This document shows, piece by piece, positions 2,407 through 34,659 of a stretch of 50,381 nucleotides of DNA. The notes below the pieces were generated by a model. The model did no database searches. It saw only the letters and a program-made list of their open reading frames with translations, and was not told the origin of the DNA. Within the stretch, counting starts at the first letter, position 1. Each line of letters starts with the position of its first letter. This DNA comes from Gemmatimonadota bacterium. GTDB taxonomy: Bacteria; Gemmatimonadota; Gemmatimonadetes; Longimicrobiales; Gaopeijiaceae. The translations under genes were made by a program, and so were the position numbers. Where the stretch lies: NCBI GenBank assembly GCA_022826005.1, contig JAJDVT010000089.1:1-50381 (forward strand). Direction: 5' to 3'.

Positions 2407-3651
2407 ATGTGGAAGATCCTCCTCGAAGAGTTCCTCGGCGATCTGCGGGCCCAGAAGACGCGCGCCTTCCTCACGATCTTCGCCGTCGTGTGGGGGACGA
2501 TCTCGATCGTCCTCCTGCTCGCCTTCGGACAGGGACTCCGGAACCAGTTCTCGACGGGGCTGCTCAACGCCGGCGAACGGATCTTCATGGTCTACGGCGG
2601 CCAGACGAGCCTGGAACACGAGGGGCTGTCGAAGGGACGGCGGATCCGGCTGCGGGAGGAGGATCTCGACCTGCTCCTGCGCGCGGTGCCGGAGTTCGAG
2701 ATGGGCAGTCCCTCCTACGGCCGGGGCCGGACGCATCTGAAGGTCGGAGAGAACCAGACGACGACCTACATGGAGGGCGTGAACCCGGTCTTCTCCGAGT
2801 TGCGGCGCATGTTCCCCGCTCCGGGCGGCCGGTTCATCAACCAGCGCGACATCGACGAGAAGCGGCGCGTGCTGTTCCTCGGAGACGAACTCGCCGCGCG
2901 CCTGTTCGGCGACGCGCCGCCCGTGGGGCGCGCGGTCACGCTGGACGGGCTTCCCTTCCGCGTGATCGGCGTGATGGAGTCGAAGTTCCAGGACTCGAGC
3001 AACAACGGGCCGGACGAGGACCGGGCCGTGATCCCCGCCTCCACGTTCCGGAGCATCTACGGCCAGGAGTTTGTGAACCACCTGCTCCTGCGGCCCCGCG
3101 ACGTGAGGGACGCGGCGGTGGCCAAGGAGGAGTTGTTCCGGGTCCTGGGCGGCCGGTACCGGTTCGCCGCGGCGGACGAGCGGGCGCTCGCGATCTGGGA
3201 CTTTATCGAGGACGAGAAGATCGTGGGCCAGATCGGATTCGGGATTCAGATTTTCCTCGGACTCGTGGGCGCGTTCACGCTGATCGTGGCCGGGGTCGGC
3301 GTCGCGAACATCATGTACGTCGTGGTGCGGGAACGGACGCGTGAGATCGGCGTCAAGCTCGCCGTGGGCGCGAGGAAGCGGCACATCGTGAGCCAGTTCC
3401 TCTTCGAAGCGACCCTCATCGCCGTCGGCGGAGGTCTCGCGGGGCTCGCCATCGCCTCGCTGCTCGTGACGGGCATCGACGCCCTGCCGATCGACGACCC
3501 GGCGATGCAGTACATCGTGAATCCGAAGCTCTCCGCCCCCATCGCCGCGGTGTGCGCGGGGATCCTCATGGCGATCGGCCTGGTGGCCGGAATTCTCCCG
3601 GCCCGCAAGGCGGCCCGTCTCGATCCGGTGGAGTCGCTGAGATACGAATAG
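2407..3651 (+). CDS. MacB/FtsX-type ABC transporter permease (second of two)
   Basis: Second MacB-like permease of 414 residues with the same plan as its upstream neighbour: one helix near residues 20-45 (FLTIFAVVWGTISIVLLLAF), a MacB periplasmic core domain, then the FtsX domain with three C-terminal helices and the block VGVANIMYVVVRERTREIGV. Two different permeases in tandem suggest a heterodimeric channel paired with the adaptor. The ATG start at 2407 follows the first permease by 44 bases. Substrate cannot be deduced; families of this kind export peptides, lipoproteins, lipids or drugs. Confidence 0.9.
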   Translation: MWKILLEEFLGDLRAQKTRAFLTIFAVVWGTISIVLLLAFGQGLRNQFSTGLLNAGERIFMVYGGQTSLEHEGLSKGRRIRLREEDLDLLLRAVPEFEMGSPSYGRGRTHLKVGENQTTTYMEGVNPVFSELRRMFPAPGGRFINQRDIDEKRRVLFLGDELAARLFGDAPPVGRAVTLDGLPFRVIGVMESKFQDSSNNGPDEDRAVIPASTFRSIYGQEFVNHLLLRPRDVRDAAVAKEELFRVLGGRYRFAAADERALAIWDFIEDEKIVGQIGFGIQIFLGLVGAFTLIVAGVGVANIMYVVVRERTREIGVKLAVGARKRHIVSQFLFEATLIAVGGGLAGLAIASLLVTGIDALPIDDPAMQYIVNPKLSAPIAAVCAGILMAIGLVAGILPARKAARLDPVESLRYE

Positions 3652-26839: not shown

Positions 26840-27261
26840 GTGGGCAAGGCGCGTTCGCGACCGAGTCCTTCGGGATGCCTGTGCTCGCCGCCTGAAGCGG
26901 AGGTCCCGGAAGAACTCCCGCCGGCACGACGTTCCAGGAGTTGCTCGGCGTCCGCCAGGGCCTCGTCGCTCGGGCCGACCTCGCCGCCACGTTGGCGAAT
27001 TCGGACGGCCGTCCATCGCTATCGAGCTTGACGGATTGGGTGGGAGCTCTCCATCGGGAGGCCGTGACGTTCAACCGGGGCTCCGACCCGCGAGGCGCGG
27101 GCATGGGCGCGGGGCCAGGTCCGTCGGAGCGGTCTTGGAATCGAGGACATCGAGGTCGTCGATGGATTCGGCGGCAAGCAGGGCGGGTGTGCTCGGCGGG
27201 CTACCCGGAATCGGCTGAGGGGCGGCTTGGACGACAATCAGCGTGAGAACCCGCGCGGCAC
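26840..27261. other. Gene-free stretch
   Basis: About 420 bases between tandem propeller B and the AlbA_2 protein, both ending toward it. Only short open stretches occur in any frame. One plus-strand run of about 60 codons near 26930-27110 has protein-like composition but no start, family signature or ribosome site. It may be decayed coding DNA. Nothing is firmly supported. Confidence 0.4.
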
Positions 27262-29658
27262 TCAGAGCGTGGGGCGGAGCCAGGCCAGATACTGAGTATT
27301 CAGGTCCGCCAGCCTCCGTGCGACGGCGGGGACTTTGCCGGCAGGTGCCGAGTCCTCGGATGCCGCCGTTTGCCGCCCGGCGCCCGCCAGGAATGCCTGA
27401 GTGAGATCCCTGGCCACTTCCAGGCCCTTGTCGACCCGTTCGCCCCCGGGACCCTCCAGTCGCCTTCTTGCTGTGTGCAGGTCCTCAATCAGGTGCCGGA
27501 CATGTGGATCGCGTTTGTCAATCGCTACCGAAAGGGCATGCTTGAGTTCGTCAGCGGATTGCCGCAAGGCGTCCAACGTGGCGCTCTGCTTCGCGAATCC
27601 GGCTTCGCCATGGACCCCGGGCCCATAGAGGTGTTCCGGGACTTGCAGTTCGGCGAGTTGCCGGCCTTGCCACTCCAGCAAAGCCAGCGAGCCTCGTTCG
27701 CTGAATCGCCCCCACTCCCTAAGGAACCTCGTCTCGTCCGGGGCCAGTTCAGTTGCGTTGCCATACGCCTCGTCCACCGCCGAAGTCGGCTCGCCCAGCC
27801 AGCGCCGGATTCTCGCCAGCTCCCGCCAGGCCCAGGCGTGTCTGCGGCTCGGGGCATCCATGCGAAGAAGGCGTTCCAGAAGAAGGCGTGCATCGCCCAG
27901 CAGACTCCGGTTCCGATCAGTCGCGCCTTCGCGGTGGGCCTGTCCGGCCTGCCACAGCTTGTTCTGGGCGCATTCCAGCAGCGCCCGGGGATCTTGCAGA
28001 ATCGCGGAACCCGCGACATCGAACAGTCTCGCCGCCATTTCGGATTCCCGAAGCCTCCTGGCGACAATCGCCGCCCCGATCGCCTCGTGCGGAGACAGCC
28101 TTCCCGCCGCACGGACCAGGAAACGCCGCACACGATCACCCTGGCTGTCCGCGACCAGGGCTTCCAGCCAGGGCACGATGACTACTGGGCGCCGTGACTC
28201 GGGGTCCATGGAAAGTGCGGTCTCGATCATCGGCTCCGCACGGTCCAGGTCGCCTCCGGCCACCAGCTCGCGGATCAGTTCCTCCGCGATAACATGGGAC
28301 GTGGGATCTCCGCGCCAAGCGGACTCGAGTGCATCCCGCGCCTCGTCCGGCCGTCCCACAGCACGTAGCTCACCGGCCTTGCGGATGGCTGACTCGGCGC
28401 TCTGCCACGGGTGGGCGAACAGGGTCGCCTGGAAGAATGTGCGCTGCTCGTCAAAATCGAACCGCGGCGGCGGCGAACCGTTGCGTTCCATCGCCTGATA
28501 GACCTTGCCCAGGCCAGTCAGACGCTTCTCGGCCAGTCCGACCTCCTTGAACAACTCACCGATCCGCGGGTTGCGGGGAGGTACGAGCCGCGGTGTGGCT
28601 CCACGCTGGAGCTGGTCGAGGTCGATTCCGGGGACGGGACCCGGAGTGCTTCGGATGTCGATGCGGTCGGACATGACGCGAACCAGGGTCGTGTGCGGTG
28701 CGTCGTCACCATAACCGCGATGGAACACGGCGTTCACCAGAACTTCACGAAGTGCATTCTCTGGATAACTGGGGCGATTCAGAGCACTCACCTGATCGGG
28801 CACCTTGTCGATCCTCGACCCGATCACCTCGCGGCGCAGATAGTCCAGACATCCTCTAACCTGCTCCGCGAGGCCGCCCTTGAACGTTTTGTCACGAAAT
28901 GTGTCTCCGGCCGCGCCGGACTGCAGGATGCTCGTCTCGATGGCCGCGCCCGAAAACCAGCGCGACGGGTCACGGGAGAAGAAGAGAAGAGCCACGTTGA
29001 GGGGAAGCTCATGGTCGTTGACACGCCTGACCAGGTCCATCTTCCTGTAGATGTGTCGCGCGTCGGACTCGTCCGACAGAGCGCTTCCGCAATCCCGCAG
29101 ATGTTCCCGGACCTTCGTCTCGCTGATGTCGTCGACCGTGGCGTCCGTGGCCGTCCGGGAATCCCAGGGTAGGACGGCGGACCGTTCGTGCAACTGCGTC
29201 AGAAGACCGGCGGCGTCGGCGTCCACCGTCCTGTCGTCCACCCGAACCCAGTACTTCCTGGCCCCCCGTTCGCCGTCGGGAGCCCGGTGCGGCGGGGTCT
29301 CGCTGGCGGGCACCCAGACAACCAGAATCCTCCTGCCGTCCTTCTCTTCCCGGGAGACGCGGGGGACGTAGCGCGGCTCGATCGTACGGCACTTTCCCGT
29401 GATCCATCGATCGGCCTCGTCCATCTGCTCGGGAGTGAGTCCCTTCGGCGGCAACTCGGCGTGGCCGTCCTTCTCCGCGACGCCCAGGACGACGTATCCG
29501 CTGCCGTGACGCCTCAGGTCGTTCGCGAACGCGCAAATCGTCTTGAGCACTTGATGGCCCGTGACCTTCGAGTCCCACGTTGCCTTGAACTCGATGCGTT
29601 CGGACTCGACCGTGCGGGCGTGGAGCAAGTCGTCGAGGTTGATTCGGAGGTTGCTCAC
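27262..29658 (-). CDS. AlbA_2 (Schlafen-like) / RecG-like ATP-binding protein with TPR C-terminus
   Basis: A 798-residue protein. N-terminus: AlbA_2 (Schlafen-type) domain at about residues 5-150 (ESERIEFKATWD; TICAFANDLRRHGSGYVVLGV). Then a linker and a divergent histidine-kinase-like ATP-binding region near 285-400 (ENALREVLVNAVFHRGYGD; DRIDIRSTPGPVPGID; NPRIGELFKEVGLAEKRLTG), the usual second half of this family. The last 380 residues form TPR-like helical repeats (DEARDALESAWRGDPTS; DRAEPMIETALSMDPES), an uncommon addition. GTG start with AGGAAGAG upstream. AlbA_2 proteins are often found in defence islands, and broken genes including an mcrC piece lie next to it. Role unknown; defence or transcription regulation are possibilities. 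Confidence 0.85.
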   Translation of the reverse strand: MSNLRINLDDLLHARTVESERIEFKATWDSKVTGHQVLKTICAFANDLRRHGSGYVVLGVAEKDGHAELPPKGLTPEQMDEADRWITGKCRTIEPRYVPRVSREEKDGRRILVVWVPASETPPHRAPDGERGARKYWVRVDDRTVDADAAGLLTQLHERSAVLPWDSRTATDATVDDISETKVREHLRDCGSALSDESDARHIYRKMDLVRRVNDHELPLNVALLFFSRDPSRWFSGAAIETSILQSGAAGDTFRDKTFKGGLAEQVRGCLDYLRREVIGSRIDKVPDQVSALNRPSYPENALREVLVNAVFHRGYGDDAPHTTLVRVMSDRIDIRSTPGPVPGIDLDQLQRGATPRLVPPRNPRIGELFKEVGLAEKRLTGLGKVYQAMERNGSPPPRFDFDEQRTFFQATLFAHPWQSAESAIRKAGELRAVGRPDEARDALESAWRGDPTSHVIAEELIRELVAGGDLDRAEPMIETALSMDPESRRPVVIVPWLEALVADSQGDRVRRFLVRAAGRLSPHEAIGAAIVARRLRESEMAARLFDVAGSAILQDPRALLECAQNKLWQAGQAHREGATDRNRSLLGDARLLLERLLRMDAPSRRHAWAWRELARIRRWLGEPTSAVDEAYGNATELAPDETRFLREWGRFSERGSLALLEWQGRQLAELQVPEHLYGPGVHGEAGFAKQSATLDALRQSADELKHALSVAIDKRDPHVRHLIEDLHTARRRLEGPGGERVDKGLEVARDLTQAFLAGAGRQTAASEDSAPAGKVPAVARRLADLNTQYLAWLRPTL

Positions 29659-29739
29659 CGAGACGTGCTCTTCCTTTCCGTATCGGGGTCCTGGCGGGTC
29701 GCTCTCCTCGGGCTTACCTAATGTAATCTGCGCCTGTCA

Positions 29740-29880
29740 TTTCATCGGCAGGTCGGTCTGGTCGCCAACCACCCCCAGCATCTTGCCGCGGATGCCCGCG
29801 AGATCCTCGCGCCGTTCCACGTACCCGCGGTCGATGCCGCGGCGGACGAGGTGGTTGACGCCGGTGGCGAGATAGCCGCC
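29740..29880 (-). pseudogene. mcrC: Fragment of mcrC (5-methylcytosine restriction subunit)
   Basis: The minus strand encodes YLATGVNHLVRRGIDRGYVE followed by RREDLAGIRGK, matching the N-terminal third of McrC family proteins (NHL-RRGLDRGYV plus GIRGK). Neither the rest of McrC nor mcrB is present. The piece is fused in frame to a methyltransferase remnant upstream and runs into a stop at 29737. Identification rests on this one block of about 35 residues. Confidence 0.55.
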
Positions 29881-29899
29881 GGACAAGCTCCTCCCCCAC

Positions 29900-30330
29900 T
29901 TACGCCCTTGCGACTGAGAGGTCGTCGGAAGGTCGGGGGCGGCGTTCGCGAATTCCACACGGTCCCGGATATCGCGATGAACGGGGTCACTCTCGTCGAA
30001 GAGGCCGGTAAGGCACCACTCCGCCAGGGCAATCTGGCCGCCCGGCCTGAGCAGACGCCAAAGCTCGTTGAAACAGACATCCCTGTCGGGGGTGTGAGCG
30101 ATGGCCTCGAACGAGTAGGCGGCATCGAAACAGCCGTCGGCGACGTGATGCTGGCGCCGGCCGGCCTCGCAATGTTGATCGCGGGTCCCCCGACACCGCA
30201 GCCGATGTCGGCGACCCTCATGCCTGGCCCCAGCCATACTCGTAGAACTTGGTGACCACATCGTAGAACCGACTCACCATCCTGGCAATGAACCGTTGAC
30301 GCCGTCCCCGAAACCACCGATCGTCCTTGC
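29900..30330 (-). pseudogene. Broken sterol C24-methyltransferase-like (Erg6/SMT family) gene
   Basis: Three blocks of an SMT-family SAM methyltransferase remain in order but in different frames. Block 1: FYDVVTKFYEYGWGQ, the sterol-methyltransferase N-terminal box, about 30224-30310. Block 2: the SAM motif GMRVADIGCGVGGPAINIAR, about 30160-30226. Block 3: VADGCFDAAYSFEAIAHTPD followed by ELWRLLRPGG and AEWCLTG, about 29915-30148. Roughly 40 residues are missing at each of the two junctions, so the gene has suffered two internal deletions plus frame changes. The C-terminus is lost and joined to an mcrC piece. The order and box-1 wording favour SMT over general UbiE-type enzymes. Confidence 0.65.
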
Positions 30331-30389: not shown

Positions 30390-31664
30390 ATGAAGCGCAT
30401 CCACGTCATCATCGCAGTCGGGGTTGTCGCGTTCCTTGTCGGAGCACTCGTCTCTCCCATGCTCGGCTGGGGCGGTCCGGAGGGTTCGGCGGCGGCATCC
30501 GAGGCTACGATCGACCTGCCCGCCGCAGTGGCACGGGCGTGGTTTCCCCCGATCGACGATTACGAAAACGGGGGCGGGGCGCTGGACGACGAGCAGTTCA
30601 CGGAGCTGATGGCAGCTCTCGATGCCGCGATGAGCGCCGAGGAAACCGCAGCCGACTTCGCAGGTGAAGCGAGCTACCATCTGGCCAACTTCGGCCGGCG
30701 CCTCGCGGTGCCCCGAATCACGGAGCCTCAGCAGGAGGAGATCGCCGCCTTTCTGACCGTTCTGGGCGAGAGGCATCCCGACCATCGTCAGCTCATCGAT
30801 CGTCAGAAGAGTGTCCTGACCCCGTTGTACTCGCCGAAGTCCACCGATGACATACCCGTGTTCTCCCGGCGCGTGGACCTGCTGCTGAGCGACTCGGAGC
30901 TTTATGCCGATGGTGACTTTGAAGACGGTCAGGTGGACCGAATCCTGGCCACGCTACGCGCGATCCTTGGCGCACCGGAGGTGTCCGACCGCTTCGCAGC
31001 GGAGGCCGAAAGCCACCTGCGGCACGCCGGCATGCTCCTCCAGTTCGGCCGCCTGTCGCCTGAACAGTTGGCGAGGGTCCTCGCCTACATCGATGAGGTC
31101 GCGGCAGCGCACCCCGGTGCGGCGGACCTGATCGCGAACACCCGCTACGTGATCGAGAACCTGACGCCGGGGAGGGTCGCCCCGAACATCACCGGAACGG
31201 ACACCGACGGTGAGCTATTCTCGCTGGAGGACTACCGGGGGAAGGTCGTCGCCCTCGTGTTCTCAGGGCATTGGTGCGGTCCCTGCCGGGTGGAATACCC
31301 CTTTCAGCGCGCCATGGTGAGTCTATATGAAGACATGAGCGAGGATGCGGTGCTCTTGAGCGTGAACTCCGACCCCGTCCTGGACACGATCCAGGCTGTG
31401 AAGGTGCGCGAGTCGCTGGACTACCGGACCTGGTGGGACGGCCATGGCGAAGTGTCCACCGAGGGTCCGATCGCGACCGCCTGGCATGTGGCCGCATGGC
31501 CGACGATCTACATCCTGGATGAGGAAGGGGTGATCCGGTTTGTGAACAAGCGCGGCGCCGACATGATCGCGACGGTGGACGGGCTTCTGAAGGAGAAGCG
31601 GTGGGCGGCGCTTGAGGCCAGCATGTTGGCGCCTGCCGGGGATGGGGCCGGGGAAGGGAAGTGA
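30390..31664 (+). CDS. TlpA-like membrane-anchored thioredoxin-fold protein
   Basis: Protein of 424 residues. An N-terminal membrane anchor or signal (HVIIAVGVVAFLVGALVSPM) leads to a helical domain at about 40-255 with no named family, then a TlpA/AhpC-type thioredoxin domain at about 260-405 (GRVAPNITGTDTDGELFSLE; the redox site WCGPC, Cys296 and Cys299; AWPTIYILDEEGVIRF with the cis-Pro). Probably a periplasmic thiol reductase or cytochrome c maturation-type oxidoreductase. Ribosome site GGGAGG precedes ATG at good spacing. It diverges from the gene remnants and stands alone. Confidence 0.85.
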   Translation: MKRIHVIIAVGVVAFLVGALVSPMLGWGGPEGSAAASEATIDLPAAVARAWFPPIDDYENGGGALDDEQFTELMAALDAAMSAEETAADFAGEASYHLANFGRRLAVPRITEPQQEEIAAFLTVLGERHPDHRQLIDRQKSVLTPLYSPKSTDDIPVFSRRVDLLLSDSELYADGDFEDGQVDRILATLRAILGAPEVSDRFAAEAESHLRHAGMLLQFGRLSPEQLARVLAYIDEVAAAHPGAADLIANTRYVIENLTPGRVAPNITGTDTDGELFSLEDYRGKVVALVFSGHWCGPCRVEYPFQRAMVSLYEDMSEDAVLLSVNSDPVLDTIQAVKVRESLDYRTWWDGHGEVSTEGPIATAWHVAAWPTIYILDEEGVIRFVNKRGADMIATVDGLLKEKRWAALEASMLAPAGDGAGEGK

Positions 31665-32626: not shown

Positions 32627-32992
32627 CTACTTCGCCGCCACACGCCGGAACAGCAACGCCGACCCGCACCACAGCGCGACGAAAAACCCGTTCGACAGCA
32701 CGATCTCGGGCACCGAACTTACCGCGACGTGCTGCTTTCCGACGATCAGCGCGATCATGATGACCAACGCCTGCGCCCCGGCCGTTGCGAACATCGCCCG
32801 CGCCATTCCAGCGGGCCGCAGCCGTGCGATTGCCGCCCCGACGACGCCCACCCCCAGCACCCCCGCGTAGATCCGGTCAAAGGGATCGCCCTCGACCCCG
32901 ATGAGCCCGACGGCCCCGATCACCCACATCAGGAGGAGAGCCGTCGCCACCGCAGCTCCGACCGCGAATCGATAGACTTTCCCGGTCTGCAT
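32627..32992 (-). CDS. Four-TM membrane protein of unknown function
   Basis: A 121-residue integral membrane protein with four predicted helices: RFAVGAAVATALLLMWVIGA, YAGVLGVGVVGAAIARL, MFATAGAQALVIMIALIVG and VLSNGFFVALWCGSALLF. The start at 32992 has a strong ribosome site (GGAGGGAG, eight bases upstream). Similar small proteins are widespread without known function. A 16-bp tandem repeat array lies 69 bases upstream of the start on the same strand, within its likely leader or promoter. Confidence 0.75.
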   Translation of the reverse strand: MQTGKVYRFAVGAAVATALLLMWVIGAVGLIGVEGDPFDRIYAGVLGVGVVGAAIARLRPAGMARAMFATAGAQALVIMIALIVGKQHVAVSSVPEIVLSNGFFVALWCGSALLFRRVAAK

Positions 32993-33060
32993 GCTGGGGA
33001 CTCCCTCCGGCCGTTCTCGGTTTCCCTCGCTGCGCCGCCCATTGGCGAGAGGCCCGTCGG

Positions 33061-33140
33061 GCAGCCAGCCCATCGGGCAGCCAGCCCATCGGGCAGCCAG
33101 CCCATCGGCCAGCCAGCCCATCGGCCAGCCAGCCCATCGG
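33061..33140. repeat. 16-bp x5 perfect-phase tandem repeat
   Basis: Five head-to-tail copies of GCAGCCAGCCCATCGG; copies 4 and 5 begin with C instead of G, otherwise identical. Sixteen is not a multiple of three, so it does not encode a stable peptide repeat. It lies between the DUF234 ATPase stop (33235, minus) and the small membrane gene's start (32992, minus), i.e. in the latter's upstream region, where a change in copy number could alter expression. Confidence 0.9.
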
Positions 33141-33234
33141 GCCCGTTGAAGGTACCGAGAATGAACCCCTGGACAACCATCCGGCCAACCCGGTGGCCTG
33201 CCGCACCGGGTTGGGCCAGGGGTCAGGACCACGG

Positions 33235-34659
33235 TCACCAGGGCTGGCGGGCCTCCGCGGCCAGCTCCTCCTCGCCGATCAGCCAGACCCGGGCGTCGCG
33301 GACCGCCATCCGCTGCAGTTCCCGTTCGAAACCGGTCAGGGAGAAGATCAGGCGCAGCCGGGCCTGGCGGCCGTAGCCGTAGCGGGTCGCGCGGATCTGG
33401 CGGTCGAGGTCCTGCAGGATCGCGGCGGGGGCGGGGGCCGGCCCGGGGTGGATGTGGCCGTAGCAGACCGCGCCGCTGGCCAGGGTGCCCGCGACGGGGA
33501 AGTCGAAGCCGGAGCCCCACAGCGGGCCGGCGGTGCGGGCGCGGGCGCCGAGGACGGGTTCGCAGCCGAAGCGCAGGTAGTTGCGGCAGATCAGCGGTAG
33601 CGCGTGACGGACGGCGTGGGCGAATGAGGGGCGGATGGCCTCCTTCCAGATCCTCTCGGCGGTGCTCTCGGGACCTGCCGCCGCCGCGGCTACCAGACCT
33701 GGGCGCAGCCGGTGGATCACCGACCACCAGAACGCCTCGTGGGGGTCGGAGAGGCGGTAGCGGGTGCGGCGGCTGCGTGGTGGGGCGTCCACCGGCCGCT
33801 GGGCGTCCACGAGTCCCAGCTCCCGCAGCCGGAGGAGGTACGGGCCGGCCGTCCCCGGGATTCGCGCCGACAGTTCCGGCCAGCTCTCCGCGCCGGTCGC
33901 GATGGCCCGCAGGATTGCGGCGTACCGGTTGGCCTTGCCGACCGCCCGCTCCAGCAGCGCCATCGGTCCTTCGACCAGAGGCCGGGAGCCGCGCAGAAGG
34001 CCGCGCCGGAGTGCCGCGGCAGGACTTCCCCGGCTGCCCGCGAGCCCCCACGATCCCGGCAAGCCGCCGAATACCGACCAGCCGAGCAGCAGTTCGCCGC
34101 CCTGCCAGCGCGGGACCGCCGCCGCAAGATCGTAGTGCGTGCCGATCCCCAGATGGACGACCCTGACCGGTGCGGGGGTGGCGCCCGGCTGAATCCGCAT
34201 GGCCGCTTCCCACAGCGGCGAATCGGGCGTGTTGAGCGTCTCCCCCAGCCCGCGTCCCTGGCTGGACAGGAACAGGTGTACCCGGGCTCCGCTCCGGCGC
34301 ACCTCGCTCCACGCCTGACCCAGCTCATGCCAGAAGGTGCGGTTCGCGGCCGCAAGCGCCCCGGGTTCTTCGATCACGAGGGTCAGGGGGGCCATCTCCG
34401 CCATCGCCGCGAACAACTCGCGCCAGTCGTCCGGCGGCACCTTCCAGGGCGCGAGGGGTGCGAGCCGGACCGCGAGGGCCCTGCGGTTGTCCCGATCGGT
34501 CAGCCCGGGCGGAACGAACAGCACCCGGCGCCCGCCCTCGGTCGCCTGCAGGACCACCGAAAGGGGCGAATGGCCGAGCCTTCCCTCGACCGACACCAGG
34601 AGCGGTTCCGGGTCCGCTGCCAGCGACCGCAAGCGCTCTACCGTCTCATAAAATAACAT
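33235..34659 (-). CDS. DUF234-type archaeal-ATPase-family protein with degenerate P-loop
   Basis: A 474-residue protein. The plan matches ATPases with a C-terminal DUF234 domain: an N-terminal AAA-like part (residues 1-200), a winged helix at about 250-310 (WPELSARIPGTAGPYLLRLR; GLVDAQRPV), then a C-terminal nuclease-like domain (ICRNYLRFGCEP; SGFDFPVAGTL). The Walker A position reads VEGRLGHSPLSVV, lacking the Lys-Thr/Ser of GKT, and the Walker B position is TLVIEEPGAL. ATP hydrolysis is therefore doubtful. ATG at 34659 lies at the edge of an AT-rich patch, the likely promoter, shared divergently with glutamine synthetase. These proteins are often mobile; role unknown. Confidence 0.7.
   Translation of the reverse strand: MLFYETVERLRSLAADPEPLLVSVEGRLGHSPLSVVLQATEGGRRVLFVPPGLTDRDNRRALAVRLAPLAPWKVPPDDWRELFAAMAEMAPLTLVIEEPGALAAANRTFWHELGQAWSEVRRSGARVHLFLSSQGRGLGETLNTPDSPLWEAAMRIQPGATPAPVRVVHLGIGTHYDLAAAVPRWQGGELLLGWSVFGGLPGSWGLAGSRGSPAAALRRGLLRGSRPLVEGPMALLERAVGKANRYAAILRAIATGAESWPELSARIPGTAGPYLLRLRELGLVDAQRPVDAPPRSRRTRYRLSDPHEAFWWSVIHRLRPGLVAAAAAGPESTAERIWKEAIRPSFAHAVRHALPLICRNYLRFGCEPVLGARARTAGPLWGSGFDFPVAGTLASGAVCYGHIHPGPAPAPAAILQDLDRQIRATRYGYGRQARLRLIFSLTGFERELQRMAVRDARVWLIGEEELAAEARQPW

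Follow-up and report, generated by a model that had tools for sequence, protein, structure and literature searches.

At positions 29714-30307, the stretch of DNA that we analysed (the window, 50,381 nucleotides) carries what we take, with a probability of nearly 90%, to be a non-functional chimeric pseudogene, in which pieces of a sterol methyltransferase (SMT) gene and of mcrC have been brought together as illegitimate deletions eroded what had been an mcrBC-AlbA_2 locus. We favour this reading because the pieces are ordered, the deletions can be mapped, the mcrC match reaches 98%, and congeners supply both the expected gene order (G022) and a comparable remnant (G018). The sequence lies in some 600 bases without a complete gene, between an AlbA_2 gene (27262-29658, minus strand) and a redoxin-type gene (30390-31664, plus strand). 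An initial annotation, made from the letters alone, had described a mosaic of the two genes at 29740-30330, and the recognisable sequence, 29714-30307, fits that placement. Read along the minus strand, the elements are as follows:

30224-30307, minus strand: SMT block 1, SRFYDVVTKFYEYGWGQ, SMT profile positions 41-68, with a TGA in its own frame right past the junction
30224-30233, minus strand: junction 1, a 97-bp deletion with CTGGGGCCAG common to both edges
30144-30242, minus strand: SMT block 2, GPGMRVADIGCGVGGPAINIARPAGASIT, containing the SAM-binding motif, in a second frame
30143-30144, minus strand: junction 2, a 109-bp deletion relative to the SMT gene of a Holophagales genome (L066), with at most 2 bp of common sequence
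29914-30147, minus strand: SMT block 3, from DGCFDAAYSFEAIAHTPDRDVCFNELWRLLRPGGQIALAEWCLTG to APDLPTT, in a third frame, with no SMT C-terminal third beyond it
29872-29913, minus strand: junction 3, about 40 bp separating SMT and mcrC
29782-29871, minus strand: mcrC block, LATGVNHLVRRGIDRGYVERREDLAGIRGK, 90 bp or 30 codons, with up to 98% DNA identity to the intact mcrC of congeners
29781-29782, minus strand: junction 4, an 819-bp in-frame deletion within mcrC relative to congener G019 (L004 625/1445), with about 2 bp in common
29714-29781, minus strand: mcrC 3' end and the start of the mcrC/AlbA_2 intergenic stretch, 77-83% identity
29737-30261, minus strand: open reading frame of 174 aa spanning SMT block 3 and the mcrC pieces, with no SAM motif in frame
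27262-29658, minus strand: intact protein of 798 aa with AlbA_2 (Schlafen), HATPase_c_4 and TPR domains

The SMT pieces were identified with a search profile of 51 intact SMTs, from which the relic was left out, run on all six frames of the window. Three colinear minus-strand pieces between 30307 and 29914, each in another frame, match profile positions 41-68 (30307-30224, E 1.5e-7), 95-127 (30242-30144, E 2e-10) and 163-240 (30147-29914, E 4.4e-24). The window's six frames hold no further significant match to this profile, the next best having an E of 5.8, and three such matches in order are far beyond chance. The initial annotation's three ordered blocks, with two deletions and frame changes, are therefore borne out by profile matches in three frames and by the 97 and 109 bp that are missing. 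Near the N-terminus, where SMTs carry the motif YEYGWGQ(S)FHF, the relic has FYEYGWGQ, the FHF having been lost at junction 1. The SAM-binding methyltransferase domain is colinear with that of intact SMTs over profile positions 95-127 and 163-240, in different frames. Set beside the SMT/ERG6 sterol 24-C-methyltransferases known from sponge symbionts (PMC10070321, PMC9531527), the relic has three blocks that agree with the SMT profile, yet it is broken by two internal deletions and frame changes and lacks the C-terminal Sterol_MT_C region. No match to that domain (PF08498) was found in the relic, whose SMT sequence ends at profile position 240; the domain is present in the intact SMTs of the genus, including the one on contig C103 of the same genome, and in the intact relatives. 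Nor is there an open reading frame for the whole enzyme, since the pieces occupy three frames and a TGA follows block 1.

Pfam assigns block 3 to general methyltransferase families (Methyltransf_11, E 5.9e-9; UbiE weakly) and does not match block 1, while NCBIfam gives the relic methyltransferase weak matches to several kinds. Such results might suggest an ordinary enzyme of the UbiE or ArsM type rather than an SMT, a reading to which we give very little credence. On the SMT profile, block 3 reaches 80.6 bits, compared with 13.6 bits for Pfam Ubie_methyltran, and block 1 reaches 26 bits; in addition, the FYEYGWG motif is present, and the blocks are 70-90% identical to full-length SMT-like proteins. 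We rejected a UbiE-type origin on the SMT-profile scores set against those of Ubie_methyltran and Pfam.

In a scan of named genomes, the intact SMTs nearest to the relic were those of two MAGs titled Holophagales bacterium (L066 and L067), with 90% identity over 21 residues in block 1, 70% over 30 in block 2 and 70% over 74 in block 3; the next SMT lineages reach 57%, up to about 66%, and 48%, respectively. A maximum-likelihood tree groups the relic with these two SMTs at a support of 100/100, although the relic occupies just 34% of the tree columns and its branch length is rough. Together with the profile scores, this grouping with intact SMTs upholds the initial annotation's choice of SMT over UbiE as the best match of blocks 1 and 3. 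Inside the phylum, no closer intact SMT was found among 395 sampled genomes, the best being about 42% identical. The relic SMT was probably foreign, given that the closest relatives known belong to Acidobacteriota and its own genome keeps a different intact SMT; we infer the direction of transfer. As for carriers, IMG/VR gave one weak partial match to the SMT, and plasmid matches were all below 60% identity, with the best-ranked at 29%.

Aligned to L066, the relic retains positions 3000-3057, 3145-3234 and 3344-3569 of that locus. The intact Holophagales SMT has CTGGGGCCAG and CTCGGGCCAG/CTCGGGCCGG 97 bp apart, and the repeat at junction 1 matches 10/10 on one edge and, on the other, 9/10 in L067 and 8/10 in L066. 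To judge by the sequence, these near-identical 10-bp repeats are the usual trace of deletion between short direct repeats. The sizes of the deletions, 97 and 109 bp, account for the frames of the SMT pieces. A source for the filler of about 40 bp at junction 3 was found neither elsewhere in the same genome, with as many as 3 mismatches allowed, nor, at a convincing level, in the loci compared. Junction 1 is the only one of the four with a convincing repeat. The repeated illegitimate recombination proposed initially is consistent with all four junctions, with a long repeat at one alone. Pseudogenes that arise by deletion between short repeats are ordinary.

Beyond the filler, 29871-29779 is 76-98% identical (mostly at least 85%) to mcrC DNA in related genomes and 88% identical to an intact mcrC of the same genome (C25). 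The best DNA match is 98% over 93 bp, and the fragment also matches NCBIfam PRK09736 (E 1.5e-5). The true edge of the block is likely at 29782. The mcrC codons share their reading frame with SMT block 3, as had been noted initially, and show no amino-acid change relative to G019; the significant match expected of an McrC block is provided by mcrC DNA of up to 98% identity. While the block itself is real, the initial annotation missed both the mcrC 3' end at 29781-29714 and the internal mcrC deletion, which, relative to G019, removed 819 bp, or 273 codons, between the two remaining pieces. Measured against the McrBC 5-methylcytosine restriction system (McrC, PF10117), the locus preserves 30 codons and a 3' end that agree with the mcrC DNA of congeners, but it is without mcrB and without most of mcrC. 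It is the SMT, not mcrB, that stands upstream of the mcrC remnant, and mcrB is gone.

The joins between SMT and mcrC rest on one MAG contig, and the joined mcrC block resembles many mcrC copies in related genomes, the kind of sequence that is apt to mislead assemblers. An assembler could thus have joined an SMT fragment to an mcrC/AlbA_2 locus from a different place or organism. We consider this improbable: the SMT piece has two internal deletions, which are not an assembler's product, the mcrC block is flanked by two junctions within 90 bp, and the intact mcrC on C25, at 88% identity over the block, is too distant for an exact overlap.

A second alternative is that the 174-aa open reading frame is translated and has been kept as a small functional chimeric protein, for example as an McrC decoy. 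One open frame is indeed common to SMT block 3 and the mcrC pieces, and the mcrC block lacks amino-acid changes relative to G019. However, this frame excludes the SAM-binding motif and takes its N-terminus from out-of-frame sequence, chance alone produces many such frames in GC-rich DNA, the same frame was found in no relative, and a recent event would likewise explain so few changes over 30 codons. We therefore read this frame as accidental and regard a functional product as highly unlikely.

The pseudogene reading also draws on related loci. The neighbour that the initial annotation had called a defence-type protein is the AlbA_2/HATPase_c_4/TPR gene, which adjoins mcrBC in a congener and is under purifying selection (dN/dS 0.19 against G018). 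That congener, G022 (C89), has mcrB, mcrC and AlbA_2 in order on one strand, and the window has the same order and strand, with the mcrC remnant followed by AlbA_2. Unlike the window, the G022 locus shows no SMT match in 15 kb, and its mcrB and mcrC are matched over most of their length. In congener G018 (L168:6640-6900), whose AlbA_2 protein is 90% identical to that of the window, an alignment read by eye shows no more of mcrC upstream of AlbA_2 than a remnant of its 3' end. The pairing of AlbA_2 with a ruined mcrC thus has at least one parallel, a second mcrC loss at a locus of this type. In no relative did we find an intact SMT adjoining mcrBC, and the window holds no tRNA that might have served as a landing site.

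On this evidence, the locus would once have held mcrB, mcrC and AlbA_2, with an SMT gene upstream on the same strand. Deletions at short or absent repeats would have taken out two stretches within the SMT; a deletion would then have taken the 3' third of the SMT, mcrB and the start of mcrC; and a further one most of the remaining mcrC, leaving the downstream AlbA_2 gene intact. The order of these events is our reconstruction.

Some other sequences in and around such loci may be recorded here. Two overlapping mcrC pieces of 54-76% identity in G003:C228 (L179:3729-4135) are another decayed copy. At 27090-27226, sequences of 91 bp and 46 bp recur on both flanks of mcrBC in G008:C368 (89-96% identity), the 91-bp sequence also being found in G003:C228 and G012:C138; these are possibly boundary sequences of mcrBC loci. 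At 32900-33250 there are short in-frame repeats, GWPMGWLADG on the minus strand and SQPIGQPAHR on the plus strand, among overlapping reading frames.

The check suggested initially, a search of the same genome for intact SMT or mcrBC, turned up an SMT on C103 and mcrC on C25 and C79. The SMT (G000:C103, L045; 90433-91155) carries Sterol_MT_C, is 42-53% identical to parts of the relic, and groups in the tree with SMTs of Rhodospirillaceae, Bryobacterales and Opitutales MAGs; both mcrC genes are intact. Across the genus, Sterol_MT_C matches occur in 15 of 23 genomes, the SMTs placed in the tree represent three distant lineages, and mcrC occurs in 19 of 23 genomes with up to five matches each. Contig C79 (L175:12481-12843) also bears, 9 kb from an mcrBC pair, a contig-end fragment closest to oxidosqualene cyclases, while no match to the squalene epoxidase family PF08491 was found in the same genome.

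Congener G002 and a record titled Gemmatimonadetes bacterium SB0664_bin_10 have 3222 identical bases in common, which places the window in a genus of Gemmatimonadota; the SB06 bins we take to be from sponges, and the bacterium of the window is close kin of sponge symbionts. A contig (L092) of a MAG titled Gammaproteobacteria (SB0675_bin_31) agrees over 3.2 kb, at 97.8% identity, with G033, a member of the window's family, through either misbinning or very recent transfer.

That the relic's ancestor alkylated sterols is plausible. In L066 (2851-5071), a Rieske/KshA_C oxygenase gene lies 20 bp beyond the SMT gene, and its product has 4beta-methylsterol monooxygenase SdmA as its best NCBIfam match (E 4e-15, far under the model's own cut-off), making a sterol substrate plausible; sterol is the presumed substrate of the relic's SMT. 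Methylation of sterols in vitro is known for bacterial SMTs that come from sponge symbionts, and C-24 methylation has been demonstrated for other bacterial SMTs (PMC10070321). Ircinia symbionts of ten phyla, including Gemmatimonadota, carry steroid gene clusters with evidence of horizontal transfer (PMC9531527). Bacterial SMTs and steroid-gene transfer among sponge symbionts are therefore already published, and what is new is this instance.

One might go further and propose that SMT genes cross phyla of sponge symbionts, entering and leaving genomes at mcrBC/AlbA_2 defence loci. We think this unlikely; if true, it would make sterol-alkylation genes passengers of defence islands. The relic itself is sequence evidence of the gain and loss of an SMT in Gemmatimonadota, another SMT lineage having been kept. 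Together, a dead SMT and three distant SMT lineages in one genus suggest that the set of SMTs carried by a sponge bacterium can change within a short time, and this bears on the question of which sponge partner produces alkylated sterols, from which disputed fossil biomarkers derive.
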